The notes beneath the pieces are model-generated. The model saw only the letters and a program-made list of their open reading frames with translations. It was not told where the DNA came from and did not search any database. A stretch of DNA of 64,000 bases from an uncultured Chloroflexota bacterium (GTDB taxonomy: Bacteria > Chloroflexota > Anaerolineae > UBA4142 > SHND01): assembly GCA_937870825.1 (NCBI GenBank), contig CALMZO010000214.1, positions 1 through 64,000 on the forward strand. The letters run 5' to 3'. Below, one piece after another: positions 7,150 through 39,184 of this stretch (positions are counted from its first letter, which is position 1; every line of letters begins with the position of its first letter). Position numbers and translations under genes: made by a program.

Positions 7150-7196
7150 TTTAGAGATTGGAGACTGCCCACTGATACCTGATGACTGATAACCGA

Positions 7197-8237: not shown

Positions 8238-8241
8238 AAAA

Positions 8242-8313
8242 GGAACCTCACCCCAGCCCTCTCCCTATCAAGGTGAGGGCTGGGATGAGGTTCCCCTCCT
8301 TGATAAGGAGGGG
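8242..8313. repeat. Double-hairpin spacer repeat between purD and purM
   Basis: GGAACCTCACCCCAGCCCTC (8242-8261) pairs with 8275-8294 at 19 of 20 positions. A second perfect 9-bp stem, CCCCTCCTT/AAGGAGGGG, follows at 8293-8313. The purD stop codon (8268-8270) lies in the first loop, so the element encodes the last part of PurD. A relative of the same element encodes the NLTPNSSPTRRGKL loop of PurH. Confidence 0.8.
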
Positions 8314-9581: not shown

Positions 9582-9624
9582 TGTTTTTTACTGATTACTG
9601 TTCACCGATAACTGATTACTGCCG

Positions 9625-11034
9625 CTATCCCGCCAACGCCTTTTCAAACCCCGTTTTCACATGCGTCCTGTCAATTTCCAACGGATACACACCCGTAAAA
9701 CACGCGTTGCAATATCCTTCGCGGCGCCCCACTGCGCGCATCATGCCCTCGACGGACAAAAAATGTAACGAGTCCGCGCCGATGTAATCGCAAATTTCTT
9801 GAACGGTGTGTTTGTGCGCGATGAGATTGTCGTACGTTCCCATGTCAACGCCCATGTAACACGGATGCGCGATGGGCGGACAAGTAATGCACACATGCAC
9901 TTCACGCGCGCCCGCGTTGCGTAACAGTTTTACGAGCGGACCCGATGTATTACCGCGCACAATGCTGTCGTCAATCATGATGACGCGTTTGCCGCGCAAA
10001 TTTTCTTCGAGCGCGTTAAATTTCAATGCCACGCCTTGTTTGCGTAATGAATCGGTGGGCTGAATGAACGTGCGCGCGATGTAACGATTTTTTGTGAAAC
10101 CTTCATTGTACGGAATGTTCGACGCGCGCGCGTAACCAATCGCGGCGGGCATGGACGAATCAGGAACGGGGACAACCACATCCGCTTGAATCGGCGCTTC
10201 ACGCGCGAGTTCTTCGCCGAGACGTTGACGCACGTTGTGAACGCGTTGCCCATCCCAAAACGAATCGGGACGCGAAAAATAAATGTGTTCAAAAATACAG
10301 CGCGCAAGTTGCGGCATCGGCGGCAGTCCTTGCCGAAAACGCAAAACGGTGTTGCTCAACGTGACGATTTCGCCGGGTTTCACTTCACGAATTTCATCAC
10401 AGCCCAACGTTTTCAACGCGCCCGTTTCTGACGCCGCCGCGTGTCCGCCGCTCGGCAAACGCCCAACACTCAGCGGACGAAAACCCCATGGGTCACGCAC
10501 CGCGAACACTTGGTCACGTGTGAGAATCACGAGCGAATATGCGCCATGCCATTGTGACATCGTGTTGGCAATGCGTTCTTCCCACGTATCACCTTCCGCG
10601 CCTGCCAGCATCATCGTCATCACTTCGCTGTCCGACGACGACGACAAACCGACGCCGCGCTGCAAAACGTTTTGACGCAACTCGGACGCGTTCACCAAAT
10701 TGCCATTGTGCGCGACGGCGAGCGGACCGTGAAATGTTTCCACCATGAACGGACCCGCGTTGCGGCGATGCGATGAACCTGTTGTGGAATAACGCGTGTG
10801 TCCAATCGCGTAATGTCCTTCAAGATGTGAAAGATTTTCCGAATTGAAAACTTGTGCGACGAGACCGACATCCTTGTGCAAACGCATCGTGTTATCGTCC
10901 GAAACGGCGATGCCTGCTGCTTCTTGCCCGCGATGTTGCAACGCATACAGCCCGAAAAAAATCATGCGCGCAACATCCTCATTCGGGGCAAACACCCCAA
11001 TCACGCCACATTCTTCGTTTGGTTTATCGCGCAT
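9625..11034 (-). CDS. purF: Amidophosphoribosyltransferase
   Basis: A 469-residue enzyme catalysing the committed step, PRPP plus glutamine to phosphoribosylamine. The N-terminal nucleophile Cys9 (EECGVIGV) would be exposed by removal of an 8-residue propeptide. ALQHRGQEAAG and TRYSTTG mark the glutamine amidotransferase domain. VIMIDDSIVRGNT is the PRPP site. Cysteines in LARCIFEHIY, CITCPPIAHPC and YCNACFTG match the positions that hold a [4Fe-4S] cluster in the Bacillus-type enzyme, suggesting an oxygen-sensitive form. It lies between purK and purD with short repeat-bearing spacers. Confidence 0.97.
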   Translation of the reverse strand: MRDKPNEECGVIGVFAPNEDVARMIFFGLYALQHRGQEAAGIAVSDDNTMRLHKDVGLVAQVFNSENLSHLEGHYAIGHTRYSTTGSSHRRNAGPFMVETFHGPLAVAHNGNLVNASELRQNVLQRGVGLSSSSDSEVMTMMLAGAEGDTWEERIANTMSQWHGAYSLVILTRDQVFAVRDPWGFRPLSVGRLPSGGHAAASETGALKTLGCDEIREVKPGEIVTLSNTVLRFRQGLPPMPQLARCIFEHIYFSRPDSFWDGQRVHNVRQRLGEELAREAPIQADVVVPVPDSSMPAAIGYARASNIPYNEGFTKNRYIARTFIQPTDSLRKQGVALKFNALEENLRGKRVIMIDDSIVRGNTSGPLVKLLRNAGAREVHVCITCPPIAHPCYMGVDMGTYDNLIAHKHTVQEICDYIGADSLHFLSVEGMMRAVGRREGYCNACFTGVYPLEIDRTHVKTGFEKALAG

Positions 11035-11085
11035 AATTTAGTAACCGCGAAGCGACGCAAAGGAAAACATTTGTTTCGCGCCGAT

Positions 11086-12186
11086 TCACGCAGATTTGCG
11101 GTGAATCATTTCCAGCACTTGAGCGAGTTTCATCTCGCGCGTTTTCTCATCACTCGCCACAATCGTCACATGCCCCAACTTGCGCCCGGCGCGCGGGGCT
11201 TTGTCGTACAAATGAACGTGCGCGTCGGCAATTTGCAGCAGCGCGTTCCCATCAGGCAATTCCCCAATCAAATTCACCATCGCACTGCACCCGCGCGCGT
11301 GTGCGGAACCGAACGGCAAATTCAGCATTGCGCGCGCGTGATTTTCAAATTGGCTCGTCGCTGCGCCTTCGATTGTCCAATGTCCCGAATTGTGTACGCG
11401 CGGCGCCATTTCATTCGCCAGCAATTCGTCGCCCACTTGGAAAAATTCAATCGCCAACACGCCGACATAGTTCAATGTGTCGAGAACGCGTTGTGCGTAC
11501 GCTTGCGCCAATTCTTGTAGGGCGCGCGTTGTGTTTGGCGCGGGCGCGCGCGACAATCTTAAAATTCCGTCGCGATGAACATTTTCCACGAGCGGATAAA
11601 AAACCTGCGCGCCGTCTTGGCTGCGCGCCGCGAGAATCGAAACCTCGCGCGTGAAATTTACAAACTCTTCCAGAATCAATGCCTCGCGATTCAATTCATG
11701 CCACGCGCGTTTTGCGTCATCCTGCGCCCGAATCAAAAATTGTCCTTTGCCGTCGTAACCCAGTCTGCGCGTTTTCAAAATCGCAGCCCCCCCAATTTCC
11801 CTTATTTCCCTCTCCAATGCCGTTTGTGACTCTACGGGAATGAACCGCGCCGTCGGAATTCCTAACCCTCTAAAAAATTCTTTTTCCACCAAACGGTCTT
11901 GCGAAACGCGCAGCGCATCCGGCGGCGGAAAAATTTTTGTGAATTGCGAAATGAATTGCGCGGACGCGACGGGCACGTTTTCAAATTCGTACGTCACCAC
12001 GTCAGACCCGCGCGCGAGTTGTTCCAACGCGCGTTCGTCGTCGTACGCGCCGCAAATGTGTTTTGCCAAATGTTTCATTGGCGCAGCGGGCGCGGGGTCA
12101 AGAAACGTGACACGCGCGCCGAGTGGATACGCCGCGAGTGCGAGCATTCTGCCAAGTTGTCCGCCGCCAATGATGCCGATTTGCAT
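11086..12186 (-). CDS. purK: 5-(carboxyamino)imidazole ribonucleotide synthase
   Basis: A 366-residue ATP-grasp enzyme that carboxylates AIR with bicarbonate to N5-CAIR, the substrate of PurE. It begins IGIIGGGQLGRMLALAA. VVTYEFENVP, LKTRRLGYDGKGQ and the closing NEMAPRVHNSGHWTIEG are clear family signatures. Presence of purK beside purE indicates the two-step bacterial route rather than direct CO2 carboxylation. The spacer to purE holds five consecutive hairpins (12204-12342). Confidence 0.96.
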   Translation of the reverse strand: MQIGIIGGGQLGRMLALAAYPLGARVTFLDPAPAAPMKHLAKHICGAYDDERALEQLARGSDVVTYEFENVPVASAQFISQFTKIFPPPDALRVSQDRLVEKEFFRGLGIPTARFIPVESQTALEREIREIGGAAILKTRRLGYDGKGQFLIRAQDDAKRAWHELNREALILEEFVNFTREVSILAARSQDGAQVFYPLVENVHRDGILRLSRAPAPNTTRALQELAQAYAQRVLDTLNYVGVLAIEFFQVGDELLANEMAPRVHNSGHWTIEGAATSQFENHARAMLNLPFGSAHARGCSAMVNLIGELPDGNALLQIADAHVHLYDKAPRAGRKLGHVTIVASDEKTREMKLAQVLEMIHRKSA

Positions 12187-12203
12187 TCGTTGTTTGCCGA
12201 CGC

Positions 12204-12342
12204 CGTGAAATAAATTTCACGTCTAAACAGGTGAAAACCCAACGAATTGGGTTTCGACGTATGTAATTCGTTTTAACGAATTTTTACCTCAATGAGCCGT
12301 CGAATTGATTCGATGGCATACTTGCGCGCGAATTAATCGCGC
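12204..12342. repeat. Train of five small hairpins between purE and purK
   Basis: Five perfect or near-perfect inverted repeats follow one another. CGTGAAAT/ATTTCACG is at 12204-12221, AAACCCAA/TTGGGTTT at 12235-12254 and AATTCGTT/AACGAATT at 12265-12282. GCCGTCGAAT/ATTCGATGGC is at 12296-12317 and GCGCGA/TCGCGC at 12326-12342. The last one contains the purE stop codon in its loop. None has a strong T tract, so this is a structured spacer or mobile repeat rather than a simple terminator. Confidence 0.85.
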
Positions 12343-12824
12343 GGGTCAGGATTCTCCAACACACTCTTTGTCTGCGCTTCCCGATACGCGCGCAGCGCTT
12401 CCCGAATCTCTGGAAATTTCACGCCCAACAATTCTGCGGCGAACAATGCCGCGTTCACCGCGCCCGCGCGTCCGATGGCAAACGTCGCGACGGGAACACC
12501 AGCAGGCATTTGTACAATCGAGAGCAGCGAGTCCAATCCGTGCAGCGCTTTTGATTCAATGGGAACGCCGAGTACCGGCAAAATCGTTTTCGCCGCGAGC
12601 ATTCCCGGCAGATGCGCCGCGCCGCCCGCGCCCGCGATGAGGACGTGCAAGCCGCGCGCCTCCGCCGTCGACGCGTATTCAAACAACAAATCGGGCGTGC
12701 GATGCGCGGACACGACGCGCGTTTCGTACGAGATGTTGAGCGCGTCGAGCGTTTGCGCCGCGTGCTGCATCGTTTCCCAATCGGAACGCGAGCCCATGAC
12801 AACACTAACCAGTACGTTAGACAT
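12333..12824 (-). CDS. purE: N5-CAIR mutase, class I
   Basis: A 163-residue enzyme that moves the carboxyl group of N5-CAIR to C4 of the imidazole. The start at 12824 ([19 protein letters not shown]) overlaps purC by 8 bases. The VVSAHRTPD loop carries the catalytic His. [25 protein letters not shown] and [12 protein letters not shown] are diagnostic. Length and PurK partnership indicate class I. It lies between purC and purK. Confidence 0.96.
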
Positions 12825-13824
12825 GACGTGTAGGGATAATGCCTTGTGCTTGCCCAATCAGAGATTGGAGATTAGAGATGAGGCGCGGTTCAATCGGATA
12901 CTCGCCCGCGTCAAAAGTTTTTCCCGTGAGCATTTCGTAAATTGTGATGTAACGCTCGCTTGCTTGAATCCACAACGCGTCGGGCAGCTTTGGCGGTGCG
13001 CCGTCGCCGCGATAATTTTTTTGCGCGTACGCAAGCCGCACAAATTCCTTGTCAAAATTTTCGGGTTCGGCGCCGTTTTCAAAACGCGCGGCGTACGAGT
13101 CCGCTTTCCAAAAACGCGAGGAATCGGGCGTGTGAACTTCGTCAATCAACAAAATTGTTCCATCGCGCGCGCGCCCGAATTCGTATTTTGTGTCCACCAG
13201 AATCAAGCCCGCGCGTTTTGCAATTTCTTGTCCGCGTTGAAATACATCGAGCGCGGCTTCCATCACGCGATGCCACGTCGGCGCATCCAAAAAATTTTCA
13301 CTGACGACTTGGGCGGAGGTCAAGCGTTCATCATGCGCGCCTTGTGCGCCTTTGGTTGTCGGGGTAATAAGCGGCTGCGGCAGCGCCTGATTTTTTTTCA
13401 AACCTTCGGGAAAACGATACCCGTAAATTTCGCGTTCGCCCAACGCATAGCGATACCACAACGCAGTCGTTGTCACGCCGGTGATGTAGCCGCGCACAAC
13501 CACTTCGACGCGAAACGGTTCCGCCGCGCGCGCAATCAAAACATTCGGGTCAGGAACCGATAACGCGTGATTTTGAATAATGTCGCGCGTTTGTTCAAAC
13601 CACCACGCCGCGAGTTGATTCAACACCTGCCCTTTGTACGGCACGCATGCGAGAATTCTATCGAACGCGGACAAGCGGTCTGTGGTGACAAACAAAATTT
13701 TTTCGTCGTCCAACGCATACGCGTCGCGCACTTTGCCCGCGCGTTGATGCGGAAATGGTAAATGTGTTTCGTTCAGCGCGTACGGCAAGGCAGCGCGAAT
13801 TTGTTCTGCAGTCAAGCGCATCAA
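12817..13824 (-). CDS. purC: SAICAR synthetase
   Basis: A 335-residue enzyme joining CAIR and aspartate with [23 protein letters not shown], then RLSAFDRIL, and VVRGYITG and [13 protein letters not shown] are family signatures. It belongs to the longer (about 300-residue) type. The final 20 or so residues (from [11 protein letters not shown] to PTRHV) are read from a heptad repeat plus a GTAGGG-type spacer repeat, another case of a repeat-supplied C-terminus. This extension carries the gene 8 bases into purE. A start one codon later (second Met) is equally possible. Confidence 0.95.
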
Positions 13825-26110: not shown

Positions 26111-28144
26111 ATGCAACCCGCCAGTCAACAACCCAACCTTGACCATATCCAGAACGCGTGGCAAGAATTTGTCACGCACAATCAATTTGCGCCCGACCTC
26201 GACCCGTTGGTGGTGCGTTCATGGCAGCGTTCCGCGCCGCGTTTGAATCCCTACGGCGCGCCGCAGTGGACCTATCTGAGCGATGAGGTCTTTCCGCGCT
26301 CGCGCCAAAAACACGCGGCGCTACTCGCGCTGGCGCGTCCGTTGATGGAAGATGTATATCAGTTCATCGAAGGGGCGGGCGCGCTCATTTTGTTGACGGA
26401 CAGTACGCATTGCGTTTTGGATGAATTGGGTGACGAACACGTTCGCCGCCAAGTGCAGGGGTGGGGGATACGCCCCGGCGCGTTTCTGGATGAATCGCGC
26501 GTGGGGACAAATGCGTTCGCGATTGCATTGACCGAAAGCTCGCCCGTACAAATTGTCGGCGCGGAACATTTTCTCATCCCGTTTCATTCGTACAGCACTG
26601 TCGCCGCGCCGATTTTTGATTTGGACGGTTCGCCGCTCGGCGTGATTGGGTTTATTCAACATGTGGAAAAACACACCGCGCACGCACTGGGCGTCGTCGT
26701 CGCCGCCGCGAAAGCGATTGAAAGTCAATTGTCCGCCGATTTACTGATGCGCGAAGCCAATGCGCGCGCGAGTGAATTGAATGCCGCGCTCGATGCCATT
26801 TCCGACGGCGTTCTCGCGTGGGACACGCGCGGGGTTGTGATGCACCTCAATGACCACGCGGGGCAATTGCTCGGGCTGGAACCGAAACTCGTCGTCGGAC
26901 GCGCCTTGAATGAATATCTCACCCTCTCCGAAACGCTGGCGCGCGCGGTTGCATCCGGTGAAGATGCGCGCGAAGTGGAGACGAGTTTTGTGGTGAACAA
27001 TTCACCGCGCGAATTTTTTGTGACGCTGCGCGTGCTGAAAAAAGAAGATGGCACGCCGATTCAATACATTGCCACCCTGCGGCGCACAGAACAGGTGCGC
27101 CAACTGGTCACGCGGCTCGTCGGCGCACAAGCGCGTTTGACCCTTGACGATATCGTGGGCAACAGTCCCGCGACGCGCCGCATTCGCAAACAAGCGTTGG
27201 CTGCCGCGAACGCAAAGGGGAATGTGTTGTTGATTGGCGAAGAAGGCACGAGCAAAAACGCGCTGGCGCGCGCAATTCACAATTCGAGCAAGCGCGCGGC
27301 AGGTCCGTTCCTCGCCATCAACTGTCGCGCCATTCCGCGCGATTTGGTGTTGGGCGAATTTTTGGGCTATGAGCAGGGCGCATTCAATGCGAATACGCCG
27401 AGCGGACAGCCAAGCAAATTTGAATTGGCGAACGGCGGCACGCTGTTTCTTGACCAGGTGGATGCGCTGCCGATGGAGATGCAGACGGTTCTGGGGCGCG
27501 TGATTGAATTTGGCGAAGTGATTCGTTTGGGCGGAACGCGCGTGATTCCTGTGGATGTGCGCGTGATGGCTTCGACGGAATTCGATTTGGAACGCCGCCT
27601 GAACGAATTGGCTTTTCGGCGCGATTTGTATTACCGGCTGTCACCGCTGATGATAAACATTCCGCCGCTGCGCGAACGGACGGGCGACATTCCCGTACTC
27701 ATTGACCGCTTGCTGGAAAAATTGTCGCGGCAGTTCGGAAGAACCTTCAAGTTGTCGCCGCGTGCGCGCGAGCGTTTGTTGAAATATCGCTATCCCGGAA
27801 ACATTACGGAATTGGAAGGCGTGATTGAGCGTTCGGCGTTGCAGTGCGAGGGGGAATATGCCGTGTCCCCGGGCGCGCGCGGTCCCAGTGACAACGTGCT
27901 GGTCATCAAGCCGGAACATTTGCCCCCACAAGTGCGGGAACGTCGGACCATTGTGTCGCGTTCGGGTGAGCCGGTGCGGACGATGACGGAAAGCGAACAT
28001 ATGGCAATACTGGCAGCGGGGCGGGCGGCGAACGGAAATTTGAGTGCGGCAGCACGCACACTGGGCATTGGGCGGAGCACGCTGTGGCGCAAGATGAAGG
28101 AATTGGAAATTTCGTCCCACGATTTTGGTGATGTTTCAAATTGA
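26111..28144 (+). CDS. dhaR: DhaR/AcoR-type transcriptional regulator with degenerate AAA+ domain
   Basis: A 677-residue regulator heading the glycerol/dihydroxyacetone locus. In order: a GAF-like sensor (about 60-210, WGIRPGAFLDESRVGTNA), a PAS domain (about 220-330, ALDAISDGVLAWDTRG), an NtrC-type AAA+ domain (about 345-565) and a Fis-type helix-turn-helix (about 640-667, NLSAAARTLGIGRSTLWRKM). Walker A reads GEEGTSKN instead of GESGTGKE. The sigma-54 contact motif GAFTGA is replaced by GAFNAN, and Walker B has DQ instead of DE. It therefore probably cannot drive sigma-54 promoters and works like E. coli DhaR, which activates sigma-70 promoters with DhaK and DhaL as co-regulators (family knowledge). 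Confidence 0.82.
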   Translation: MQPASQQPNLDHIQNAWQEFVTHNQFAPDLDPLVVRSWQRSAPRLNPYGAPQWTYLSDEVFPRSRQKHAALLALARPLMEDVYQFIEGAGALILLTDSTHCVLDELGDEHVRRQVQGWGIRPGAFLDESRVGTNAFAIALTESSPVQIVGAEHFLIPFHSYSTVAAPIFDLDGSPLGVIGFIQHVEKHTAHALGVVVAAAKAIESQLSADLLMREANARASELNAALDAISDGVLAWDTRGVVMHLNDHAGQLLGLEPKLVVGRALNEYLTLSETLARAVASGEDAREVETSFVVNNSPREFFVTLRVLKKEDGTPIQYIATLRRTEQVRQLVTRLVGAQARLTLDDIVGNSPATRRIRKQALAAANAKGNVLLIGEEGTSKNALARAIHNSSKRAAGPFLAINCRAIPRDLVLGEFLGYEQGAFNANTPSGQPSKFELANGGTLFLDQVDALPMEMQTVLGRVIEFGEVIRLGGTRVIPVDVRVMASTEFDLERRLNELAFRRDLYYRLSPLMINIPPLRERTGDIPVLIDRLLEKLSRQFGRTFKLSPRARERLLKYRYPGNITELEGVIERSALQCEGEYAVSPGARGPSDNVLVIKPEHLPPQVRERRTIVSRSGEPVRTMTESEHMAILAAGRAANGNLSAAARTLGIGRSTLWRKMKELEISSHDFGDVSN

Positions 28145-28380: not shown

Positions 28381-28503
28381 ATTCTGCTCGTACCAAGCAA
28401 GGAGGTGCACTGCCAACGAATCTTGCTCCGCATTCGTGTCACCACTTTACATTCAATTCTGCGCGGTAAGACTACCGCGCCATGCTACAAGGAGGTAGGT
28501 GCA

Positions 28504-29247
28504 ATGAACATACTATTGGGTGAAATCGTCGGGACGATGCTGCTTATTCTTCTCGGCGATGGCGTCGTTGCGGCAGTGCTGCTCGCGAAATCCAAAGCCC
28601 AAAACTCGGGCTGGATTGTGATTGTTACCGGGTGGGCAATGGCGGTGTTTGTCGGCGCGTATGCAGTTGCTTCGGTCAGCGGCGCGCACTTGAACCCGGC
28701 TGTTACCATTGGCTTGGCGGTGGCAGGGAATACCCCTGCAGCTGATGTGCCAATGTATATCATTGGTCAATTCATCGGCGCATTCATTGGCGCGGTGTTG
28801 GTGTTCTTGATGTACTTTCCTCACTGGGCGCCGACCACCGATGCCAATCTCAAGTTGGCGGTCTTTTCTACAGGACCTGCGATTCCAAGTCTGGTGTGGA
28901 ATCTCGTATCGGAAATCATCGGAACGTTCGTCCTGATGTTTGGAATTTTCCTCATCAAGGGCGCTTCGATGCAAGGCTCGACCGGCGCGGCAGTACCCAT
29001 TCAACTCGGTGCCCTCGGCATTGTTCCTGTCGCGTTCTTGGTGTGGGCAATCGGTCTGTCGCTTGGTGGTCCGACGGGCTATGCCATCAACCCTGCGCGT
29101 GACCTTGGTCCTCGCATCGCGCACTTTCTGCTGCCCATTCCGGGAAAACGCGACAGCGATTGGGGTTATGCATGGATTCCGGTAGTCGGTCCAATCATCG
29201 GCGCCGTCATTGCCGCGTTGTTGTGGACAGGACTCGGACGCTGGTAA
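28504..29247 (+). CDS. glpF: Glycerol facilitator (aquaglyceroporin)
   Basis: A 247-residue membrane channel of the MIP family. The two half-helix signatures are SGAHLNPAVT and GYAINPARD. The Asp after the second NPAR favours glycerol over water, as in GlpF (family knowledge). Six membrane helices are visible. AAGGAGG precedes the ATG at 28504; a longer in-frame start at 28405 would add a non-membrane leader and is disfavoured. It opens the glycerol operon glpF-dhaK-dhaL-glpK and admits glycerol, and probably dihydroxyacetone, into the cell. Confidence 0.93.
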   Translation: MNILLGEIVGTMLLILLGDGVVAAVLLAKSKAQNSGWIVIVTGWAMAVFVGAYAVASVSGAHLNPAVTIGLAVAGNTPAADVPMYIIGQFIGAFIGAVLVFLMYFPHWAPTTDANLKLAVFSTGPAIPSLVWNLVSEIIGTFVLMFGIFLIKGASMQGSTGAAVPIQLGALGIVPVAFLVWAIGLSLGGPTGYAINPARDLGPRIAHFLLPIPGKRDSDWGYAWIPVVGPIIGAVIAALLWTGLGRW

Positions 29248-29401
29248 GTCAGAGACAGGAACAAAATCATTTGCGGGTGAGGCGGACCCTTGACGCTCCT
29301 TGTGCATCAGCAAACGATGCACCGCATGGGTTAGTCGTTTGGTGCTGCATGCACTCGCCCGAAATCACTGGAGCAGATGCGGTCTGCTGGAGGACGCAAA
29401 G

Positions 29402-30403
29402 ATGAAGAAACTAATCAACAATCCCGAAAATGTCGTTGTCGAAGAATTGCAAGGCATTGCCGCGGCGCATCCCGATTTGGTCAAGGTTCACTTTGACCCG
29501 AACTATATCGTGCGCGCGGACGCGCCCGTCAAGGGCAAAGTGGCGTTGGTTTCCGGTGGCGGTTCCGGACATGAACCGATGCACGGCGGCTTTGTCGGCA
29601 TGGGCATGTTGGATGCGGCGGCGCCGGGTGCAGTGTTCACTTCACCCACACCCGACCAAATGCTGGAGGCGACCAAAGCGGTAAACGGCGGCGCGGGCGT
29701 TCTGCACATTGTCAAAAATTACACCGGCGATGTGATGAATTTTGAAATGGCTGCCGACCTCGCGCGCGGCGAAGACATCCAAGTTGAATCCGTTGTGACC
29801 AACGACGATGTGGCGGTCAAAGATTCGCTCTACACCGCCGGACGACGCGGCGTGGGCGTCACTGTGCTGTTGGAAAAAATGGCAGGCGCAGCAGCCGAAC
29901 GCGGACATTCGCTCGCCGAAGTGAAAGCCGTCGCAGAAAAAGTGAACGCGAACGGACGCTCGATGGGTATGGCACTCACGAGCTGCACCGTGCCGCACGC
30001 AGGCAAACCGACGTTTGAATTGCCCGAAGACGAAATGGAAATCGGCATCGGCATTCACGGCGAACCCGGACGCACACGCATGAAAATTGCGTCCGCGCAT
30101 GAAATCGTCGAAATGATGGCAACCGCGATTGTCGACGACTTGCCGTATCAATCGGGCGACCAAGTACTGGCGTTTGTCAACGGCATGGGCGGCACGCCAC
30201 TCATCGAGCTGTATGTAATCTACAACGAGCTGAATAATTTCCTCAAAGGGCGCGGCATCACCATCACGCGCAATTTGATTGGCTCGTACATCACCTCACT
30301 CGAAATGGCGGGTTGTTCCATTACGCTCGTCAAACTGGATGACCAACTCACGCAATTGTGGGACGCGCCCGTGAAAACGCCGGGGCTGCGCTGGGGCGTC
30401 TAG
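29402..30403 (+). CDS. dhaK: Dihydroxyacetone kinase subunit K
   Basis: A 333-residue protein that binds dihydroxyacetone covalently through a His ([12 protein letters not shown]) and presents it for phosphorylation by Dha[31 protein letters not shown] and [12 protein letters not shown] are family hallmarks; the Asp of TNDDV is also catalytic. Length matches PTS-dependent DhaK rather than the ATP-dependent fused kinases. It is followed by dhaL after an 88-base repeat spacer. DhaK also antagonises DhaR in E. coli, which may hold here. Confidence 0.95.
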
Positions 30404-30491: not shown

Positions 30492-31130
30492 ATGACTATT
30501 TCACGCGATGCGGTTCTCGATTGGCTCAAAGCATTCGCTTCTACCATCCACGAAAACAGCGGGTATCTCACACAGCTCGACTCGGACATTGGCGACGGCG
30601 ACCATGGCGCGAACATGAATCGCGGGATGCAAGCCGTGTTGGCTGTACTGCCGAGCGTTGCCGACAAAGACATCGGTTCCATTTTCAAAACCGTCGGAAT
30701 GAAGCTGGTATCCACCGTCGGCGGCGCAAGTGGTCCGCTGTACGGCACAATGTTTATGCAGATGGGCAGTGCCGCCACAGGCAAAATGGAATTGACGCTG
30801 GACGATTGGATCGCGGCGATGCAGGCGGGCTATGATGGTGTGGTGATGCGCGGCAAGGCACAAGGCGGAGACAAAACAATGGTGGATGCACTCGAACCGG
30901 CATTAAACATGCTCAAAGCCAAACGCGACGCGGGCGCGTCCATCGCCGAAGCACTGGATGCTGCCGCCGATGCGACGAAACAAGGCATGGAAGCAACCAT
31001 TCCGCTCGTCGCACGCAAAGGACGCGCGAGTTATCTCGGCGAACGCAGCGCCGGACATCAAGACCCCGGCGCAACCTCGTCATGGTATCTCATGCGAACG
31101 GCGGCGCAAACATGGAAACAAGCAAGCTAA
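30492..31130 (+). CDS. dhaL: Dihydroxyacetone kinase subunit L
   Basis: A 212-residue ADP-binding subunit that transfers phosphate from DhaM to DhaK-bound dihydroxyacetone. The DSDIGDGDHGANMNRG motif binds the two metal ions; GGASGPLYGTMF and GDKTMVDAL form the nucleotide pocket. ATAPLVARKGRASYLGERS is replaced here by the close variant TIPLVARKGRASYLGERS, and GHQDPGATSSW is the usual closing motif. Length is typical for the PTS-dependent subunit. It lies directly before glpK, so the two glycerol routes are expressed together. Confidence 0.95.
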   Translation: MTISRDAVLDWLKAFASTIHENSGYLTQLDSDIGDGDHGANMNRGMQAVLAVLPSVADKDIGSIFKTVGMKLVSTVGGASGPLYGTMFMQMGSAATGKMELTLDDWIAAMQAGYDGVVMRGKAQGGDKTMVDALEPALNMLKAKRDAGASIAEALDAAADATKQGMEATIPLVARKGRASYLGERSAGHQDPGATSSWYLMRTAAQTWKQAS

Positions 31131-31194: not shown

Positions 31195-32688
31195 ATGGCA
31201 ATGTATGCCGCTGCTGTGGACCAAGGTACGACCAGTTCGCGCTTTATGATTTTTGACCACAGCGGCAAAGTCGTTACGTACGACCAAAAGGAACACGAAC
31301 AAATTTACCCCAAGCCCGGTTGGGTGGAACATGACCCGATGGAAATTTGGGGCGCGGTGCAATCGGTGATCGCGGGCGCGCTCGCCAAAGGCGCGATTGA
31401 CCCGAAAGACATTGCTGCGGTCGGCGTGACGAACCAGCGCGAAACGACAGTCGTGTGGAATCGCAAAACGGGCAAGCCCGTGTACAACGCGATTGTTTGG
31501 CAAGACACCCGCACCGACCAAATTTGCAATGAACTCGCCAAAGATGGCGGACAAGACCGTTTGCGCGGCAAAGTCGGGCTGCCGCTCGCGACCTACTTTT
31601 CGGGTCCGAAAGTGAAATGGATTCTCGACAATGTGGACGGCGCGCGCGCGGCAGCGGACGCGGGCGACCTCGCCTTCGGCAACATTGATACGTGGTTGAT
31701 TTGGAACATGACGGGCGGCGTCAACGGCGGCGTTCACGTCACGGATGTTTCCAACGCGTCCCGCACAATGTTGATGAATCTGAACACGCTCGATTGGGAC
31801 CAAGAGATTCTCAATCTCATGGGCATTCCGCGTTCCATGCTCCCGACCATTCGCGCGTCGTCGGATGTGTACGGCAACGCGACCGGTTCCCTCGCGGGGA
31901 TTCCCATCGCGGGCGACCTCGGCGACCAACAAGCTGCGTTGTTCGGTCAAACCTGTTTTTCGCCTGGTGAAGCGAAAAATACGTACGGCACCGGTTGTTT
32001 CATGCTTCTCAACACGGGCACGAAAATTGTGCCGAGCAAAAGCGGTCTCCTCACCACGCTCGGTTACAAAATCGGCAAAGAACCAGCGGTGTACGCACTC
32101 GAAGGTTCGATTGCGATTACGGGCGCGCTTGTGCAGTGGCTCCGCGACAATCTCCGCATGTTCGATTATTCCAAACACGTCGAAGATTACGCGGCAGCCG
32201 TTCCTGATGCGGGCGGCATGTACATTGTTCCCGCGTTCTCGGGTTTGTTCGCGCCGTACTGGCGCAGTGACGCGCGCGGCGTGTTCGTTGGGCTGACGCG
32301 TTTCATCAATCGCAATCACATTGCGCGCGCCGCGCTCGAAGCGACCGCGTATCAAACGCGCGAAGTGTTGGATGCGATGAACAATGATTCGGGCGTGCCG
32401 CTCACCGCGCTCAAAGTGGACGGCGGCATGGTGTACAACAATCTGCTCATGCAATTCCAAGCGGACATTCTCGGCGTTCCCGTGATTCGCCCGACGGTTG
32501 CGGAAACCACGTCACTCGGCGCGGCATACGCGGCGGGTCTCGCGGTTGGTTTCTGGGACAGTGTCGAAGGTCTGCGCCAAAACTGGGGCAAGGACAAAGA
32601 ATGGCAGCCGAGCATGGACCCGGGCAAACGCGATGATTTGTACGCGGGCTGGAAGAAAGCGGTCACGCGGACGTTTGATTGGGTCTAG
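31195..32688 (+). CDS. glpK: Glycerol kinase
   Basis: A 497-residue FGGY-family kinase forming glycerol-3-phosphate with [11 protein letters not shown] opens the first ATP loop; [32 protein letters not shown] and [10 protein letters not shown] mark the glycerol site; [15 protein letters not shown] and [19 protein letters not shown] mark the second lobe. GGAGG precedes the ATG at 31195; the second Met (31201) is an alternative. A terminator follows at 32791, closing the glpF-dhaK-dhaL-glpK unit. Confidence 0.97.
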
Positions 32689-32790
32689 TCAGCGATGAGC
32701 AATGAGGGATGAGCGATGAGTGACCTGACAGGTTTCGACGCAAATTCAAGCGAAACTTGTCAGGTCATTCAGCAACGTATTACAAGTAGA

Positions 32791-32823
32791 AGCCTGGGAG
32801 CCGAAGGGCTTCCGGGCTTTTTG
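32791..32823 (+). terminator. Intrinsic terminator after glpK
   Basis: AGCCTGGGAGCC (32791-32802) pairs with GGCTTCCGGGCT (32807-32818) over 12 bp with two wobbles, followed by TTTTT. Just before it, 32719-32768 holds another inverted repeat (GACCTGACAGGTTTCG with CGAAACTTGTCAGGTC) of a kind often seen in spacers. Confidence 0.8.
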
Positions 32824-32841
32824 GCAATTCATTTCAAGAGA

Positions 32842-33000
32842 ATGGACATTCAAACTGGTTCCGTTGATGAGGAAAATGTTTCGCTAGAACTCTCTGGCGC
32901 ACAAGCTATCGTTTTGTTCGAGTTTCTTTGGCGTTTTAAAAGCGAAGAAAAACTGAATGCGAAATTGCAGGCAGCTGGGAAACCAATACTAAAGAATTGA
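32842..33000 (+). CDS. Small unknown protein (52 residues)
   Basis: The ATG at 32842 begins MDIQTGSVDEENVSLELSGA, then QAIVLFEFLWRF and a Lys-rich end. The pattern LxLSGAQAxVLFEFLxRF recurs in small uncharacterised bacterial proteins, as far as I recall. The longer frame from 32716 would read through the spacer hairpin and the glpK terminator and is not favoured. AAGAGA is a weak ribosome-binding site. It sits with another unknown gene between the glpK terminator and glpA. Confidence 0.45.
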   Translation: MDIQTGSVDEENVSLELSGAQAIVLFEFLWRFKSEEKLNAKLQAAGKPILKN

Positions 33001-33059
33001 CATTTGCACTGTCCTGCGAGATTTACACTATAACCAAATTTGAAATCGTCGCGCCGTCC

Positions 33060-33353
33060 ATGATTGAAATAAAAATGGAAAAGACCAAGAAGGCAAGTAG
33101 GTTGGAACAAAATTCTCAACTGGAAGATCCAAGTTTTGAGCAAGTGCTTTACTTGGCACGTCGGCTAGGACCGAGTGCAAAAATCAAACTGATTCGCACA
33201 TTGGCGCAAGACTTGGAAAACCTTGCTGACCGTATTGCACCACTCGAGCCGTTCAAAACATATCACATTTATACCCCCTTCTTTCCGCCGGGAACAGCGA
33301 AAGCACTCATGGATGCAGTAGAAGAAAAGAAAAGGAGCAAGCGCAAGAAATAG
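33060..33353 (+). CDS. Unknown small protein (97 residues)
   Basis: A Lys/Glu/Arg-rich protein without recognised domain. A central helix (FEQVLYLARRLGPSAKIKLI) and a later LAQDLENLADRIAPLEPFKT suggest helices; the C-terminus is strongly basic (EEKKRSKRKK). Starts at 33060 or 33075 are equally plausible; neither has a clear ribosome-binding site. The composition is more AT-rich than the flanking glycerol genes, which may point to a later insertion. It ends one base before glpA and may be co-transcribed with it. Confidence 0.45.
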   Translation: MIEIKMEKTKKASRLEQNSQLEDPSFEQVLYLARRLGPSAKIKLIRTLAQDLENLADRIAPLEPFKTYHIYTPFFPPGTAKALMDAVEEKKRSKRKK

Positions 33354-33354
33354 A

Positions 33355-34524
33355 ATGAGCGTTTCATCAGCACCTCACGTCCTCATCATCGGCGCGGGTT
33401 CCACCGGTTCCGCGACCGCGCATGACCTCGCGCTGCGCGGGTTGCGCGTAACCGTCGTCGAGCGCGGCGAGATTGCGTCGGGGACGACGGGGCGCAATCA
33501 TTGTTTGCTGCATTCCGGCGGACGGTACTGCGTGAATGACAAAGAGGGCGCGATTGAATGCATTGAAGAAAATTTGATATTGCGCCGCATCATGCCGCAC
33601 GCGCTCGAAATGAATGATGGATTGTTTGTCGCGCTTGATGATGAAGACTACGCGTTCAAGGAAAAATTTCTCGCGGGCTGCGAAGAGTGTCATATCCCCG
33701 CGCGCGAAATTTCGGTACGCGACGCGCTGTCCATTGAACCCTTCTTGAATCCGAATATCAAAGCCGCCGTCCAAGTACCCGATGGCGTGTTCGAGCCGTG
33801 GCGTTTTTGTACATCCTTTCTCGCGACGGCAAAAAAGAATGGCGCGACGATTCGGAATTTCACCGAAGTGCGCGATTTGGTATTTCAGGGCAGCGCGGTG
33901 GCAGGCGTACAGGTGTTTGACCATCGCACACACAAAACAGAAACGCTCGGCGCGGATATCGTTATCAATGCCACAGGCGCGTGGGCGGGCAAACTCGCGG
34001 CGATGGCGCATGTGGATGTTCCTGTTGCGCCGACGGCGGGCGTGATGGTAACGATTGGCAAACGTTTCAACAACATGGTCATCAATCGCATGCACAAGCC
34101 GCATGATGGCGACATTGTCGTTCCCATTCGCAACACGTCCATTATCGGCACAACGTCATGGCGCGTCACATCCGCCGACGCGATTGAAATTCCGCAAGAC
34201 CAAATTGACAAGATGATGCGCGCGGGCGAATTGTTGATGCCAATTTTGAAAGAGGGGAGACAGCGCGGTGTGATGGCGGTTGCGCGTCCGCTCATCGCCA
34301 GCGCGAACATGGATGCGCGCGATTTTTCGCGCACGTTCGAAGCATTCAACCATCGCAAACAAGGCAGTACCGGCGGCATCATTACCATTTCGGGCGGCAA
34401 AACGACGACGGCGCGCGGTATGGCAGAAAAAGTTTCCGATGAAGTATGCGCGGAACTCGGCATCCAAGCCGAATGCAAGACGAAAACAACGCCGCTGGTT
34501 TCGTATCGAGAGTTTTACAATTAG
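33355..34524 (+). CDS. glpA: GlpA-like FAD-dependent glycerol-3-phosphate dehydrogenase
   Basis: A 389-residue flavoprotein oxidising glycerol-3-phosphate to dihydroxyacetone phosphate. HVLIIGAGSTGSATAHDLAL is the FAD Rossmann motif; SGTTGRNHCLLHSGGRYCVND and GGIITISGGKTTTARGMAEK match the GlpA/GlpD family. It stops after the catalytic part and lacks the C-terminal [2Fe-2S] BFD-like region of E. coli GlpA. No glpB or glpC follows. Instead, SdhB-, SdhC- and SdhD-like genes follow, suggesting a composite quinone-linked complex. A 42-base repeat-like spacer separates it from the iron-sulfur gene. Confidence 0.87.
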   Translation: MSVSSAPHVLIIGAGSTGSATAHDLALRGLRVTVVERGEIASGTTGRNHCLLHSGGRYCVNDKEGAIECIEENLILRRIMPHALEMNDGLFVALDDEDYAFKEKFLAGCEECHIPAREISVRDALSIEPFLNPNIKAAVQVPDGVFEPWRFCTSFLATAKKNGATIRNFTEVRDLVFQGSAVAGVQVFDHRTHKTETLGADIVINATGAWAGKLAAMAHVDVPVAPTAGVMVTIGKRFNNMVINRMHKPHDGDIVVPIRNTSIIGTTSWRVTSADAIEIPQDQIDKMMRAGELLMPILKEGRQRGVMAVARPLIASANMDARDFSRTFEAFNHRKQGSTGGIITISGGKTTTARGMAEKVSDEVCAELGIQAECKTKTTPLVSYREFYN

Positions 34525-34566
34525 GCGTTGGTTATTTGTTATTCGTCGTGCGTCATTCGTCGTGAT

Positions 34567-35313
34567 ATGTCTCTCAACGTTACGCTCAAGATTTTCCGCT
34601 CGCGTCCGCATCAGGAACAACGCTATGACACCTTCAACGTCACTGTTCCCGACGCGGCGAATGTGTTGGATGCGATTGAGCAAGCGTGGGCGCACCACGA
34701 CCGCGAGTTGATGTTTCGGCACGCGTGTCATCATGCGTCGTGCGGGACTTGTGCGGTACGCATCAACGGGCGCGAGAAATTGCCGTGCATTGCGCCCGTC
34801 CGCGAATATGCGGGAAGCGAAATCAAAATCGAGCCGCTGCGAAATTTTCCCATACTGGGCGATTTGGTGGTGGACGTTGCGGGCTTTTTTCAGAAACAAC
34901 AAGCGAGCGGTTTTATCATCACGCGCCCCACGGAAAACGAACTGGACGGCAAACCCATCACGTACACCGATGGTCTCGACCCCGAAAGTGTGCCAAGTGT
35001 TCCGTTCAATCGGTTTGAAAATTGCGTCGAGTGCGGCATCTGTTTGAGCGCGTGTCCGACGATGGCGGCGGATTACAAATTTTTTGGACCGGCGGGACTT
35101 GCCGCCATTCACGACCAGTACCGCAAAACAAGCGACACCACCGAACGAAAAAAATTATTGGAGCTCGCGGATGATGAGCAAGGCGTCTGGCGCTGTCACA
35201 GCGCGTGGGAATGCACCGAAGCGTGTCCGCAAAATGTTCAGCCCGCCGAAAAAATCATGGCGCTCCGCAAAGAAATCACGACACAACGTTTCAAAACATT
35301 TTTTCGGCGCTGA
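34567..35313 (+). CDS. SdhB/FrdB-like iron-sulfur subunit
   Basis: A 248-residue protein of the succinate dehydrogenase/fumarate reductase iron-sulfur family. The start at 34567 (MSLNVTLKIFRSRPHQEQRY) is preferred over one in repeat sequence. The N-terminal ferredoxin domain has Cys in HACHHASCGTCAV and LPCIAP for [2Fe-2S]. The C-terminal domain has CVECGICLSACP and WECTEACPQNVQP for the [4Fe-4S] and [3Fe-4S]/[4Fe-4S] centres. No SdhA is encoded; the neighbour is the GlpA-like flavoprotein. I infer that electrons from glycerol-3-phosphate pass through this chain to quinone. A stray SDH operon lacking sdhA is the alternative. Confidence 0.88.
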   Translation: MSLNVTLKIFRSRPHQEQRYDTFNVTVPDAANVLDAIEQAWAHHDRELMFRHACHHASCGTCAVRINGREKLPCIAPVREYAGSEIKIEPLRNFPILGDLVVDVAGFFQKQQASGFIITRPTENELDGKPITYTDGLDPESVPSVPFNRFENCVECGICLSACPTMAADYKFFGPAGLAAIHDQYRKTSDTTERKKLLELADDEQGVWRCHSAWECTEACPQNVQPAEKIMALRKEITTQRFKTFFRR

Positions 35314-35380
35314 GCCAATCAAGTTCGAAATTGGAAATTCAAAACATGGTCTGCGCATTTTTGATGTTGAATTTTGAATT

Positions 35381-35773
35381 ATGAATTTATACCGTCCCGA
35401 ACTCTCTCGCTTGCGTTTCCTCCGCTGGTTCGATTTTCGCAGCTGGCGCTTGGGAATGCTGGCGTACATTCTGAATCGCGTGACCGCGCTCGGACTGGTT
35501 TTGTATTTGTACATCCATCTTGTCGTGCTGACGACGCTCGTTGGCGGACCCGCGTCGTGGGACCCATTTGTCGCGATTGTACGCTCGCCGTTTTTTCTCG
35601 CGCTTGACGTCATTTTGCTCGCGGGTTTGCTCATTCACGGCTTGAATGGTCTGCGCGTCGCGCTAACGGGATTCGGGTACGGAGTGCGCGCCCAAAAACC
35701 GTTGTTTGTGGCGTTGATGATTTTCGCGGCGATTGTGTTGGTGTTGGGCGCCGTCAAGATTTTCACGGGTTAA
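35381..35773 (+). CDS. SdhC-like cytochrome b membrane anchor
   Basis: A 130-residue membrane protein with three helices. RPELSRLRFLRWFDFRSWRL leads into an ILNRVTALGLVLYLYIHLVV helix, and a later GLLIHGLNGLRVAL helix carries a second His. These match the SdhC cytochrome b556 pattern (S-x-x-x-R-x-T-G-x-x-L, heme His in the second helix). It would anchor the iron-sulfur subunit and help reduce quinone. It is followed after 3 bases by the second anchor gene. Confidence 0.82.
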   Translation: MNLYRPELSRLRFLRWFDFRSWRLGMLAYILNRVTALGLVLYLYIHLVVLTTLVGGPASWDPFVAIVRSPFFLALDVILLAGLLIHGLNGLRVALTGFGYGVRAQKPLFVALMIFAAIVLVLGAVKIFTG

Positions 35774-35776
35774 ACG

Positions 35777-36154
35777 ATGCCAAACAAAAAATCGAGCTGG
35801 AGTTGGTTCTGGCAATCGGTCACGGGCATCTTGCTCATTCTGCTCGTCGGCTTGCACATGTACGCGCATCACTTTGTCGTCGAAGGCGGACTGCGCAACT
35901 ATCGGCAAGTCGTCGAGTACTTGTCGAATCCCATCATCATCGTCGCCGAACTTGCGTTTCTCATCAGCGTCACCGTTCACGCCATGTTGGGAATGCGCGC
36001 GATTTTGTTGGACTTGGGTCCGAGTCCGCGAATGGAAAGATTGGTCACGCAAGCGTGCATCGTCGTCGGCGTGTTGACTGTGTTGTACGGTTTTTGGTTG
36101 ACGTACACGATTCTCGCGCAAGGCAGCGCGCCGACAGCGTTCTTGTTCCGATGA
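35777..36154 (+). CDS. SdhD-like membrane anchor
   Basis: A 125-residue protein with three membrane helices. LLILLVGLHMYAHHFVVEGG has a candidate heme ligand His, and a later ISVTVHAMLGMRAILLD helix has another, in the positions of SdhD/SdhC-type anchors (Hxx...HxxxGxR). It overlaps the downstream methyltransferase start by ATGA. Together with 34567 and 35381 it forms a complete SdhBCD-like electron-transfer module next to GlpA. Confidence 0.78.
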   Translation: MPNKKSSWSWFWQSVTGILLILLVGLHMYAHHFVVEGGLRNYRQVVEYLSNPIIIVAELAFLISVTVHAMLGMRAILLDLGPSPRMERLVTQACIVVGVLTVLYGFWLTYTILAQGSAPTAFLFR

Positions 36155-36693
36155 ATCACGTTCCTCGCACCGATGCAGAGTGGGAAGCCGCGTTCGCGTC
36201 GTACGACGAACCAACGTATCGTGACGCGCTCGCGTTCTTGAATCCAAAGGACATTGTGCTCGACATCGGCGCGGGCAATTTGCGTTTTGCCAAACGCGCG
36301 GCGAAACGCGTAAAACAAGTTTTTGCGATTGAACAACGCGCGGAATTGATACCCGAAAAATTGCCGCACAACGTTCAGGTGTTCTGCGGTGATGCGCGCA
36401 CAGTCGAATATCCAAACAACCTCACCGCCGCGATTTTGTTGATGCGGCACTGTCAACATTTTTCACTCTATCGCGAAAAATTGGAACGCGTCGGCTGCAA
36501 AACATTGATTACGAACGCGCGGTGGCGGATGGATGTTGAGCGAATTGATTTACACGCAACGCGGATTGCATTTTCAAATTTTCTTGGAGGTTGGTACGCG
36601 TGCGCGTGTGGGGCAGTCGGATTCAAAGAAAATGCTGTTATCAGTGATGCCGTTATCGAGTTGTCAGAGTGTCCGCGCTGTTTGAAAAACTGA
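36151..36693 (+). CDS. SAM-dependent methyltransferase-like protein
   Basis: A 180-residue protein. FLNPKDIVLDIGAGNLRFAK is a class I methyltransferase SAM-binding motif, followed by VFAIEQRAELI and a GDART acidic loop. The C-terminal part has CACG and ECPRC pairs that could bind a metal. Substrate unknown; the IVLDIGAGNLRFA pattern slightly recalls rRNA adenine methyltransferases. It overlaps the SdhD-like gene and precedes dhaM, so it belongs to the glycerol operon by position, though its role there is unclear. Confidence 0.65.
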   Translation: MNHVPRTDAEWEAAFASYDEPTYRDALAFLNPKDIVLDIGAGNLRFAKRAAKRVKQVFAIEQRAELIPEKLPHNVQVFCGDARTVEYPNNLTAAILLMRHCQHFSLYREKLERVGCKTLITNARWRMDVERIDLHATRIAFSNFLGGWYACACGAVGFKENAVISDAVIELSECPRCLKN

Positions 36694-36733: not shown

Positions 36734-39184
36734 ATGGTTGGTCTGGTCATCGTTTCACACAGCGCGAAATTAGCGCAAGGGGTTGTCGAACTCATGCGCG
36801 GCATGGCGGGCGCAGACGTTCACATCGCGCCTGCGGGCGGCATAGATTTGCCTGACCAACCGATGGGAACGGACGCGCAACTCATTTATCGCGCGATTGA
36901 GCAGGTGTATTCTCCGGATGGCGTTGCCGTTCTTGTAGATTTGGGCAGCGCGATTTTGTCCACCGAAATTGCGCTCGAAATGTTTCCGCCCGAAAAACGC
37001 GCGCACATCAAAATTGCGCCCGCGCCGTTGGTCGAAGGCGGCATTGCCGCCGCCGTTCAAGCGCGTCTCGGCAGCTCGCTCGATGCCGTATTAAACGAAG
37101 CGCGGACGGCGTTCGGTGCCAAACTCGCACAGCTTGAACATATCGCGCCGCCGATGCTCGTTCCGGAAAAAGCCCCTCACCTCGATAGCGCATCCGCACA
37201 CGAATTGATTCTGCCCGTCACCAATCGTCTGGGCTTGCACGCGCGCCCTGCCGCCAAATTTGTGCAAACGGCGGCGCGTTTCCACGCCGATGTGCGCGTA
37301 CAGGACTTGAGCAACGGACGCGGACCCGTGAACGCCAAGAGCATCAACGCGGTCACAACCCTCGGCGTACTCTACGGCCACGACATAAAAATTCTCGCGC
37401 GCGGCGCCGATGCGGGCGACGCGCTCCAGGCTTTGCAGGAACTGGCGCGCGAAAATTTTGGCGATGCGGATGAAACCGCAACGCTAGCCGAACCCGCAGC
37501 TGCAACCAAGTCAACCGAGACTTTGGAGAATGATTTTATCGGGCTGCCGGCATCGCCCGGCTACGCGATGGGTCCGGCGCGTCTGTATCGCCCGGTGGCG
37601 CCGACGATTCCCCGGCACAGCACAGACGACGCGCCGCACGAATGGACGCGCTTGCACAACGCGATTCAAAAAGCACAGGCGCAGTTGCAGCAAGCGCGCC
37701 AGGCATTGACCGGACGCGGCAAAGATGCCGAAGCAGAAATTTTTGCCGCGCAAGTGTTGATGCTCCAGGACGAAGCCCTGCAAGAACCTGCGCGGCGCGC
37801 AATCTTTGAACACAAGACGAACGCTGCACTCGCGTTCCACAATGCCGCAGAAAACATCGCCGCGCAATATGACGCGCTCCCCGACGATTATCTGCGCGCG
37901 CGCGCCTCTGACGTACGCGCCGTTTCCCGGATGGTGCTGCTCAATCTTTTGGGTGTTGCGTCTCATGTCACGTGGCGCGAGGGCATCCTCGTCGCCTCCG
38001 ACCTCACGCCTGCCGAAACCGCGCAGCTCGACCCAAACCTTGTGCGCGCCATTTGCACCGCCTACGGAGGTCCGACCGGACACAGCGCCATTCTCGCAAA
38101 AAGTCTCGGCATCCCCGCGATTGTCGGTTTGGGCGAAACCATTCTCGACATCAAAGAGGGCGACACGCTCATTGTGGACGGCGAGCGTGGACATGTCTGG
38201 GTGAATCCCGACCCCGAAGTGTTGGTCGAGTACAAAGCGTACATGGAACGCGCCGAGCGTGAAGCCGCGCTTGCGCGCGCGACGCGCAGCCAACCTGCCA
38301 TCACGCGCGACGGACATCGCGTCGAAATCGCCGCGAACATCGGCTCGGTGCAAGACGCGCGCCAAGCCGTCGAAATGGGTGCAGAAGCGGTTGGACTTTT
38401 CCGCACCGAATTCTTGTTTCTCGACCGCCGCGATGCGCCGGGCGAAGACGAACAGTACGAAACCTATCGCGCCGTCGCACAGGCGCTGCAGAATCGCCCG
38501 CTCTTGATTCGCACGCTCGACAGCGGCGGCGACAAACCTCTGCCGTATGCGAACATGCCGCACGAAGCGAATCCGTTTTTGGGCCTCCGCGGGCTGCGTC
38601 TCTCGCTCGCGCAGCCCGAATTGTTCAAAACGCAGCTGCGCGCCATTCTCCGCGTCGCGGCTGACTTTGCCGTGCGCGTCATGTTTCCAATGGTCTCGAC
38701 CTTGAAGGAATTGCGCGCCGCGCAAAACTTGATGGAACAAGCCCGCGCGGAATTGCTCGCACAAAACGTTCGCGTCCCGGAGCGCATCGAAACCGGCATC
38801 ATGGTCGAGGTCCCCAGCGCGGCGCTGCACGCGCACGCGTTCGCGCGCGAGCTCGATTTCTTTTCCATCGGCACGAATGATTTAACCCAATACACCCTCG
38901 CCGCCGAACGCGGCAATCCACACGTCGCGTTGCTTGCCGATGCCATGCATCCCGCCGTCTTGCATCTCATTTCGCTTGTCGTCACCGCCGCACATGCCCA
39001 AAACAAATGGGTCGGCATCTGCGGCGAAATGGGCGGCGACCCCAACGCAATTCCAACCCTCGTCGGGCTGGGCGTGGACGAACTCTCGATGTCCGCCCCC
39101 CTCATTCCCCAAGCCAAAAAAATCATCCGCGAACTGAATTTCGCGGATGTTCAAGCCAGCGCGCCGCGCGCATTGGAATCATAA
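36734..39184 (+). CDS. dhaM: DhaM-HPr-Enzyme I fusion phosphotransferase
   Basis: An 816-residue multidomain PTS protein feeding phosphate from PEP to DhaL. Residues 1-125 are the DhaM EIIA-like domain (GLVIVSHSAKLA, His9). Residues about 155-245 are HPr (NRLGLHARPAAKF, His169). Residues about 268-816 are a full-length Enzyme I with phospho-His450 (GGPTGHSAILAKSLGIPA), the GLFRTEFLFLDR PEP site and Cys763 in GICGEMGGDP. E. coli DhaM carries only a truncated EI; here the EI looks complete, so the protein could autophosphorylate from PEP without a general PTS. It ends the operon; a structured inverted repeat follows. Confidence 0.93.
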   Translation: MVGLVIVSHSAKLAQGVVELMRGMAGADVHIAPAGGIDLPDQPMGTDAQLIYRAIEQVYSPDGVAVLVDLGSAILSTEIALEMFPPEKRAHIKIAPAPLVEGGIAAAVQARLGSSLDAVLNEARTAFGAKLAQLEHIAPPMLVPEKAPHLDSASAHELILPVTNRLGLHARPAAKFVQTAARFHADVRVQDLSNGRGPVNAKSINAVTTLGVLYGHDIKILARGADAGDALQALQELARENFGDADETATLAEPAAATKSTETLENDFIGLPASPGYAMGPARLYRPVAPTIPRHSTDDAPHEWTRLHNAIQKAQAQLQQARQALTGRGKDAEAEIFAAQVLMLQDEALQEPARRAIFEHKTNAALAFHNAAENIAAQYDALPDDYLRARASDVRAVSRMVLLNLLGVASHVTWREGILVASDLTPAETAQLDPNLVRAICTAYGGPTGHSAILAKSLGIPAIVGLGETILDIKEGDTLIVDGERGHVWVNPDPEVLVEYKAYMERAEREAALARATRSQPAITRDGHRVEIAANIGSVQDARQAVEMGAEAVGLFRTEFLFLDRRDAPGEDEQYETYRAVAQALQNRPLLIRTLDSGGDKPLPYANMPHEANPFLGLRGLRLSLAQPELFKTQLRAILRVAADFAVRVMFPMVSTLKELRAAQNLMEQARAELLAQNVRVPERIETGIMVEVPSAALHAHAFARELDFFSIGTNDLTQYTLAAERGNPHVALLADAMHPAVLHLISLVVTAAHAQNKWVGICGEMGGDPNAIPTLVGLGVDELSMSAPLIPQAKKIIRELNFADVQASAPRALES

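Follow-up and report, generated by a model that had tools for sequence, protein, structure and literature searches.

Which electron acceptor serves a GlpA-type glycerol-3-phosphate (G3P) dehydrogenase when the genes that follow it resemble those for succinate dehydrogenase (SDH) subunits, not glpB and glpC? The question is raised by a four-gene locus within a 64,000-nucleotide stretch of contig CALMZO010000214.1 (GenBank assembly GCA_937870825.1; hereafter the window), from a 7.2-Mb Chloroflexota metagenome-assembled genome (MAG) that is 95% complete with 5.1% contamination. We propose that the four genes very probably encode a single membrane-bound G3P:quinone (probably menaquinone) oxidoreductase, in which GlpA would take the place of SdhA, and SdhBCD that of GlpBC.

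A GlpA-SdhBCD gene set in a glycerol/dihydroxyacetone operon

The locus is set in a glycerol/dihydroxyacetone operon (Table 1). The highest NCBIfam match of the flavoprotein is TIGR03377 (GlpA; 439 bits, E 1.7e-131), covering profile positions 1-379 of 530; the score lies below the cut-off of 552.8 bits because the C-terminal part is absent. Pfam searching of this short GlpA (hereafter GlpA') yields DAO alone, with Fer2_BFD absent, which bears out the sequence-only reading that the protein lacks the BFD-like C-terminus. That reading had also placed an SdhB-family protein and two heme-type anchors downstream, and correctly so: the second gene product scores 168 bits against TIGR00384 (SDH/fumarate reductase iron-sulfur protein), above the cut-off, with Pfam domains Fer2_3 and Fer4_8, and both anchors match Sdh_cyt. 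The intergenic gaps from glpA' through sdhB and sdhC to sdhD are 42, 67, and 3 bases, and the following gene overlaps sdhD by 4 bases.

Table 1. Features of the glycerol/dihydroxyacetone operon in the window.
Feature	Position	Strand	Description
DhaR-like sigma-54 regulator	26111..28144	+	540.6 bits vs cut-off 551
MIP-family channel, GlpF-like	28405..29247	+	PF00230
DhaK	29393..30403	+	NCBIfam
DhaL	30492..31130	+	NCBIfam
GlpK glycerol kinase (G3P supplier)	31195..32688	+	TIGR01311, 742 bits, above cut-off
Two small ORFs	32716-33353	+	
Short GlpA (GlpA')	33355..34524	+	Putative FAD-dependent G3P dehydrogenase of 389 aa; DAO fold alone, without the four-cysteine BFD-like C-terminal domain
GlpA'-partner SdhB (gSdhB)	34567..35313	+	248 aa; cysteine sets for [2Fe-2S], [4Fe-4S], [3Fe-4S]
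SdhC-like anchor	35381..35773	+	Sdh_cyt (Pfam), 3 hydrophobic segments
SdhD-like anchor	35777..36154	+	Sdh_cyt (Pfam), 3 hydrophobic segments
Methyltransferase-like protein	36151..36693	+	Pfam; overlaps sdhD end; recurs in these operons
DhaM-HPr-PtsI fusion, phosphoryl donor for DhaKL	36734..39184	+	NCBIfam

No SdhA is encoded in the window, as the earlier reading had stated; the sole Succ_DH_flav_C match of the genome lies on another contig, C109, where this single SdhA has an SdhB of its own and a protein in which SdhC and SdhD are fused. The search for a complete SDH elsewhere in the genome thus succeeded, and this separate enzyme rules out the window SdhBCD as subunits awaiting a lone SdhA. 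Exactly two SdhBs were detected in the genome at the E 1e-10 threshold, that of C109 and that of the window. The genome holds neither a second GlpA of this type nor a canonical GlpA, the next matches being at most 30% identical. No protein in the genome reaches the cut-off for GlpC, and the genes next to glpA' are sdhBCD; therefore, GlpA' appears to have no GlpBC.

Several features of these regions were recorded in passing. The C109 fusion protein is 332 aa long, and two similar ORFs, resembling a duplicated gene, separate sdhB from sdhA (L023 7710-12632, minus strand). Within the operon, the methyltransferase-like gene downstream of sdhD encodes a Rossmann-type protein of approximately 180 aa with RrnaAD/Methyltransf matches and a C-terminal CxC...CPxC motif; it recurs in many such glycerol operons (for example, L073, L074, L082, L088, L206, L213, L216, L217, and L221) and has no evident part in glycerol metabolism. 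DhaM, HPr, and PTS enzyme I, joined here in one protein, are often encoded by separate genes elsewhere in the phylum. The small ORFs between glpK and glpA', the first without an NCBIfam match and the second without a Pfam match, are mostly missing from more distant loci.

Distribution of the short GlpA and its partner SdhB

In a first sample of 400 Chloroflexota genomes, GlpA matches form two groups: short proteins with at least 48% identity to the window protein, and proteins mostly of at least 510 aa with at most 46% identity. The short proteins constitute one clade (SH-aLRT 100) apart from canonical GlpA; they extend at most 4 residues past the DAO domain and have no cysteine there, in place of the canonical tails of 132-180 aa with 4-5 cysteines. 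One outlier outside the clade, a divergent 404-aa GlpA-like protein without a cysteine tail (L068 8429-9643, minus strand), is encoded beside a glycosyltransferase gene and has no SdhB neighbor. An ORF in genome G507 listed as a "35% GlpA" was rejected, as by eye it appears to be a ketopantoate-reductase-like Rossmann protein.

Among the loci fetched, those with a short GlpA outside one family (f3, see below) encode SdhB directly downstream. SdhC and SdhD are then present in nearly all, the exceptions being two contig-cut loci and L091, which has no recognizable anchors and in which a 535-aa ORF past SdhB has no Pfam match. Long-GlpA loci mostly encode a protein of approximately 410-520 aa and then a weakly SdhB-like protein of approximately 410-475 aa, fitting GlpB and GlpC, respectively, in position, length, and weak Fe-S match; a fused example (L054) contains CCG and Fer4 domains, as in GlpC. 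This last cluster (genome G399, 5576-13000) combines a canonical GlpA, the fused GlpBC-like protein of 814 aa, and a GlpA'-SdhBCD set. Both GlpA types occupy the same place in the operon, after dhaK-dhaL-glpK, and the exchange therefore looks like a replacement within one operon. Outside Chloroflexota, relatives in a plasmid collection comprised only canonical GlpA and low-identity SDH-type SdhB among the matches listed.

The SdhBs adjoining short GlpA likewise form one clade (100/100), apart from the SDH SdhBs of the same genomes. Short GlpA occurs in 22 of the 400 genomes, and the partner SdhB in all 22 and in 0 of the 378 others (Fisher p ~1e-36, a value overstated because the relatedness of the genomes is ignored). 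A 23rd genome, G002, was left uncounted; it is 73% complete, and its short GlpA is a fragment lying at the end of a contig. In a second, class-centered sample, from which same-genus and already-counted genomes were excluded, 40 further genomes encode the partner SdhB; 39 of them encode short GlpA, and in the fortieth the SdhB runs to the edge of its contig, on the side expected to carry GlpA. The two genes are adjacent by coordinates in 33 of these 39, and the pair is present in all five other genomes examined from the genus of the source organism.

Over the Chloroflexota samples, we counted 56 genomes in which GlpA' adjoins SdhB; this recurrence indicates that the order is not due to chance, and the conservation of glpA-sdhBCD, which the sequence-only reading had left to be checked, proves widespread across Chloroflexota genomes. 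Chance adjacency of glpA' and sdhBCD is ruled out by the conserved order together with co-occurrence where the genes are unlinked. Contig breaks in MAGs affect a few loci, and the genomes counted do not represent independent events, since the module may have arisen once. Congruence of the GlpA' and SdhB trees was not used as evidence of interaction, since shared vertical inheritance would yield it too. On a contig that also carries the GlpA'-SdhBCD module of genome G289, we observed an 869-aa fusion of SdhA-like and SdhB-like parts (L075 12310-14919, minus strand).

Unlinked genes are found in family f3, which comprises eight genomes of three genera (G262, G037, G349, G648, G655, G662, G668, and G691). 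Here, short GlpA stands alone and SdhB is encoded elsewhere, yet both are kept (loci L125, L126, L127, L207-L210, and L223); in G655, SdhB is still located within a dhaK-glpK-sdhB-dhaL-dhaM cluster, between glpK and dhaL. The SdhBs of G262, G037, and G349 nest within the GlpA-linked SdhB clade and are therefore derived from the module. These three genomes encode two Sdh_cyt proteins, versus four in the genomes compared, and the remaining two are the SDH-type pair; the dedicated SdhC and SdhD are thus gone, and the anchors cannot be indispensable everywhere. That both genes persist although no longer linked is the strongest evidence in this analysis that GlpA' and SdhB are functionally connected. 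With the lineage-wide co-occurrence, it supports the composite oxidoreductase suggested by the earlier reading, in which GlpA would replace SdhA. Speculatively, and with considerable doubt on our part, the f3 GlpA'-SdhB pair could use the respiratory SDH's SdhCD as its docking site and, more generally, SdhB could act as an adaptor with a new interface to an unrelated flavoprotein near the 'HACHHASCGTC' [2Fe-2S] loop. If the f3 docking is true, two dehydrogenases with unrelated flavoproteins would share one quinone-reducing membrane module. The loss of dedicated anchors with retention of SdhB makes f3 a natural experiment on the role of the iron-sulfur subunit.

Conserved residues, the proposed electron path, and alternatives

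Turning to the individual subunits, R57, Y58, R311, and K349 of GlpA' are invariant among 26 sequences and align with the 'GGLRY', 'VRPL', and 'GGK' motifs of E. coli GlpD, whose equivalent residues contact the substrate. The predicted fold of GlpA' (pLDDT 90) has GlpD and GlpO as its nearest solved folds. In the partner SdhB, every cluster cysteine for [2Fe-2S], [4Fe-4S], and [3Fe-4S] is kept across divergent members, including a fourth [2Fe-2S] cysteine where most SDHs of the same genomes have aspartate. H52, E70, R149, and E155 are specific to the clade, and P116, E130, Q133, and D187, near-invariant in SDH SdhB, are missing. The single-chain AlphaFold model of SdhB has a pLDDT of 71 and is weak around the clusters and linker.

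In the anchors, His46 and His86 of SdhC and His27, His32, and His68 of SdhD are invariant. The haem ligands of M. smegmatis Sdh2, a two-haem complex II (type A SQR), are His C47, C87, D65, and D107 (PMC7447783). This enzyme has a three-cluster SdhB and two anchor proteins, as does the present module, and its four haem-ligand histidine positions are matched here, with the 40-residue spacing of C47/C87 reproduced by His46/His86 of SdhC. From these ligand positions and the matching spacing, a two-haem anchor is likely. The flavoprotein is where the module differs from complex II: GlpA has the DAO fold, unlike SdhA with its other fold, other substrate, and covalent FAD.

For the complex that we infer, with its substrate, electron path, and quinone species, the following route is proposed. 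G3P made by GlpK would be oxidized to DHAP on the FAD of GlpA', as the conserved residues and the operon suggest. GlpA', no longer equipped with the BFD-like Fe-S domain from which GlpB receives electrons, would dock on its dedicated SdhB. Electrons would then pass from FAD through the [2Fe-2S], [4Fe-4S], and [3Fe-4S] clusters of SdhB to haem bP, haem bD, and finally quinone in the SdhC/SdhD anchor. Chloroflexota usually contain menaquinone, and the quinone is presumed to be menaquinone on this account.

Three other explanations were weighed. In the first, GlpA' would pass electrons to quinone or a different acceptor without help, and SdhBCD would be only a membrane anchor comparable to CoxG. 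GlpA' is a complete DAO-fold enzyme with GlpD and GlpO as its closest structural relatives, and there is an archaeal precedent: the Sulfolobus acidocaldarius G3P dehydrogenase reduces quinone in vitro without any Fe-S partner (PMC11962113), and GlpA' might therefore catalyze its reaction without SdhB. Anchoring alone, however, would not require the cluster cysteines and haem histidines, all of which are kept, and in f3 it is the anchors that were lost and SdhB that was kept, whereas a purely anchoring role would predict the opposite; we consider this explanation improbable.

About as poorly placed, and if anything slightly more so, is the notion that SdhBCD constitutes a second SDH or fumarate reductase set sharing the single SdhA, with glpA a neighbor by chance or for regulation. 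The partner SdhB does belong to the SDH/fumarate reductase iron-sulfur family, with E. coli FrdB as its nearest solved relative, and at least one SdhA is present in each of the 22 short-GlpA genomes. However, in the genomes examined SdhA has its own adjoining SdhB and usually SdhCD too, and the GlpA-linked SdhBs form a clade of their own, which accompanies short GlpA only, including where the genes are unlinked, and which has lost the four near-invariant SDH residues. Least credible is a substrate other than G3P, such as another 2-hydroxy or amino compound: DAO-fold enzymes are diverse in substrate, but glpK, glpF, dhaKL, and dhaM surround most loci, the highest NCBIfam match is GlpA, and the equivalents of the GlpD substrate site are invariant.

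Relation to known systems

The proposed GlpA'-SdhBCD enzyme has a proposed archaeal counterpart. Genes resembling sdhB, sdhC, and sdhD come after glpA in Thermofilum-related archaea, and from this gene order a GlpA-SdhBCD complex has been proposed for Thermofilum pendens (PMC11962113, 2025). As there, glpA is followed directly here by sdhB, sdhC, and sdhD, and the kind of architecture itself is therefore not new. The T. pendens case is archaeal and uncharacterized; the present one is bacterial, lies in a dha-glpK operon, and is spread across Chloroflexota. The same authors state that bacterial glpA always occurs with glpBC; this statement needs correction in view of GlpA'-SdhBCD in Chloroflexota. 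What appears to be new is the occurrence in bacteria, together with its breadth, the structure of the clades, and the unlinked genes of f3, and no earlier report of a bacterial GlpA-SdhBCD was found in the literature searched, of which coverage was partial.

Relative to GlpABC of E. coli, haloarchaea, and most glpA-bearing Chloroflexota, the module has a homologous GlpA catalytic domain in the same position after glpK, but it is without the four-cysteine C-terminus, GlpB, and GlpC, and has SdhBCD instead. The S. acidocaldarius GlpA-CoxG enzyme shares the absence of an Fe-S C-terminus from GlpA; unlike the present module, it relies on CoxG as its anchor and has neither an Fe-S nor a haem partner (PMC11962113).

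If the proposed complex is true, the SdhBCD half of complex II would be a reusable quinone-reduction module that accepts an unrelated flavoenzyme in both bacteria and archaea. We also suspect that this sdhB is annotated as succinate dehydrogenase in many Chloroflexota genomes, which would mislead metabolic models.
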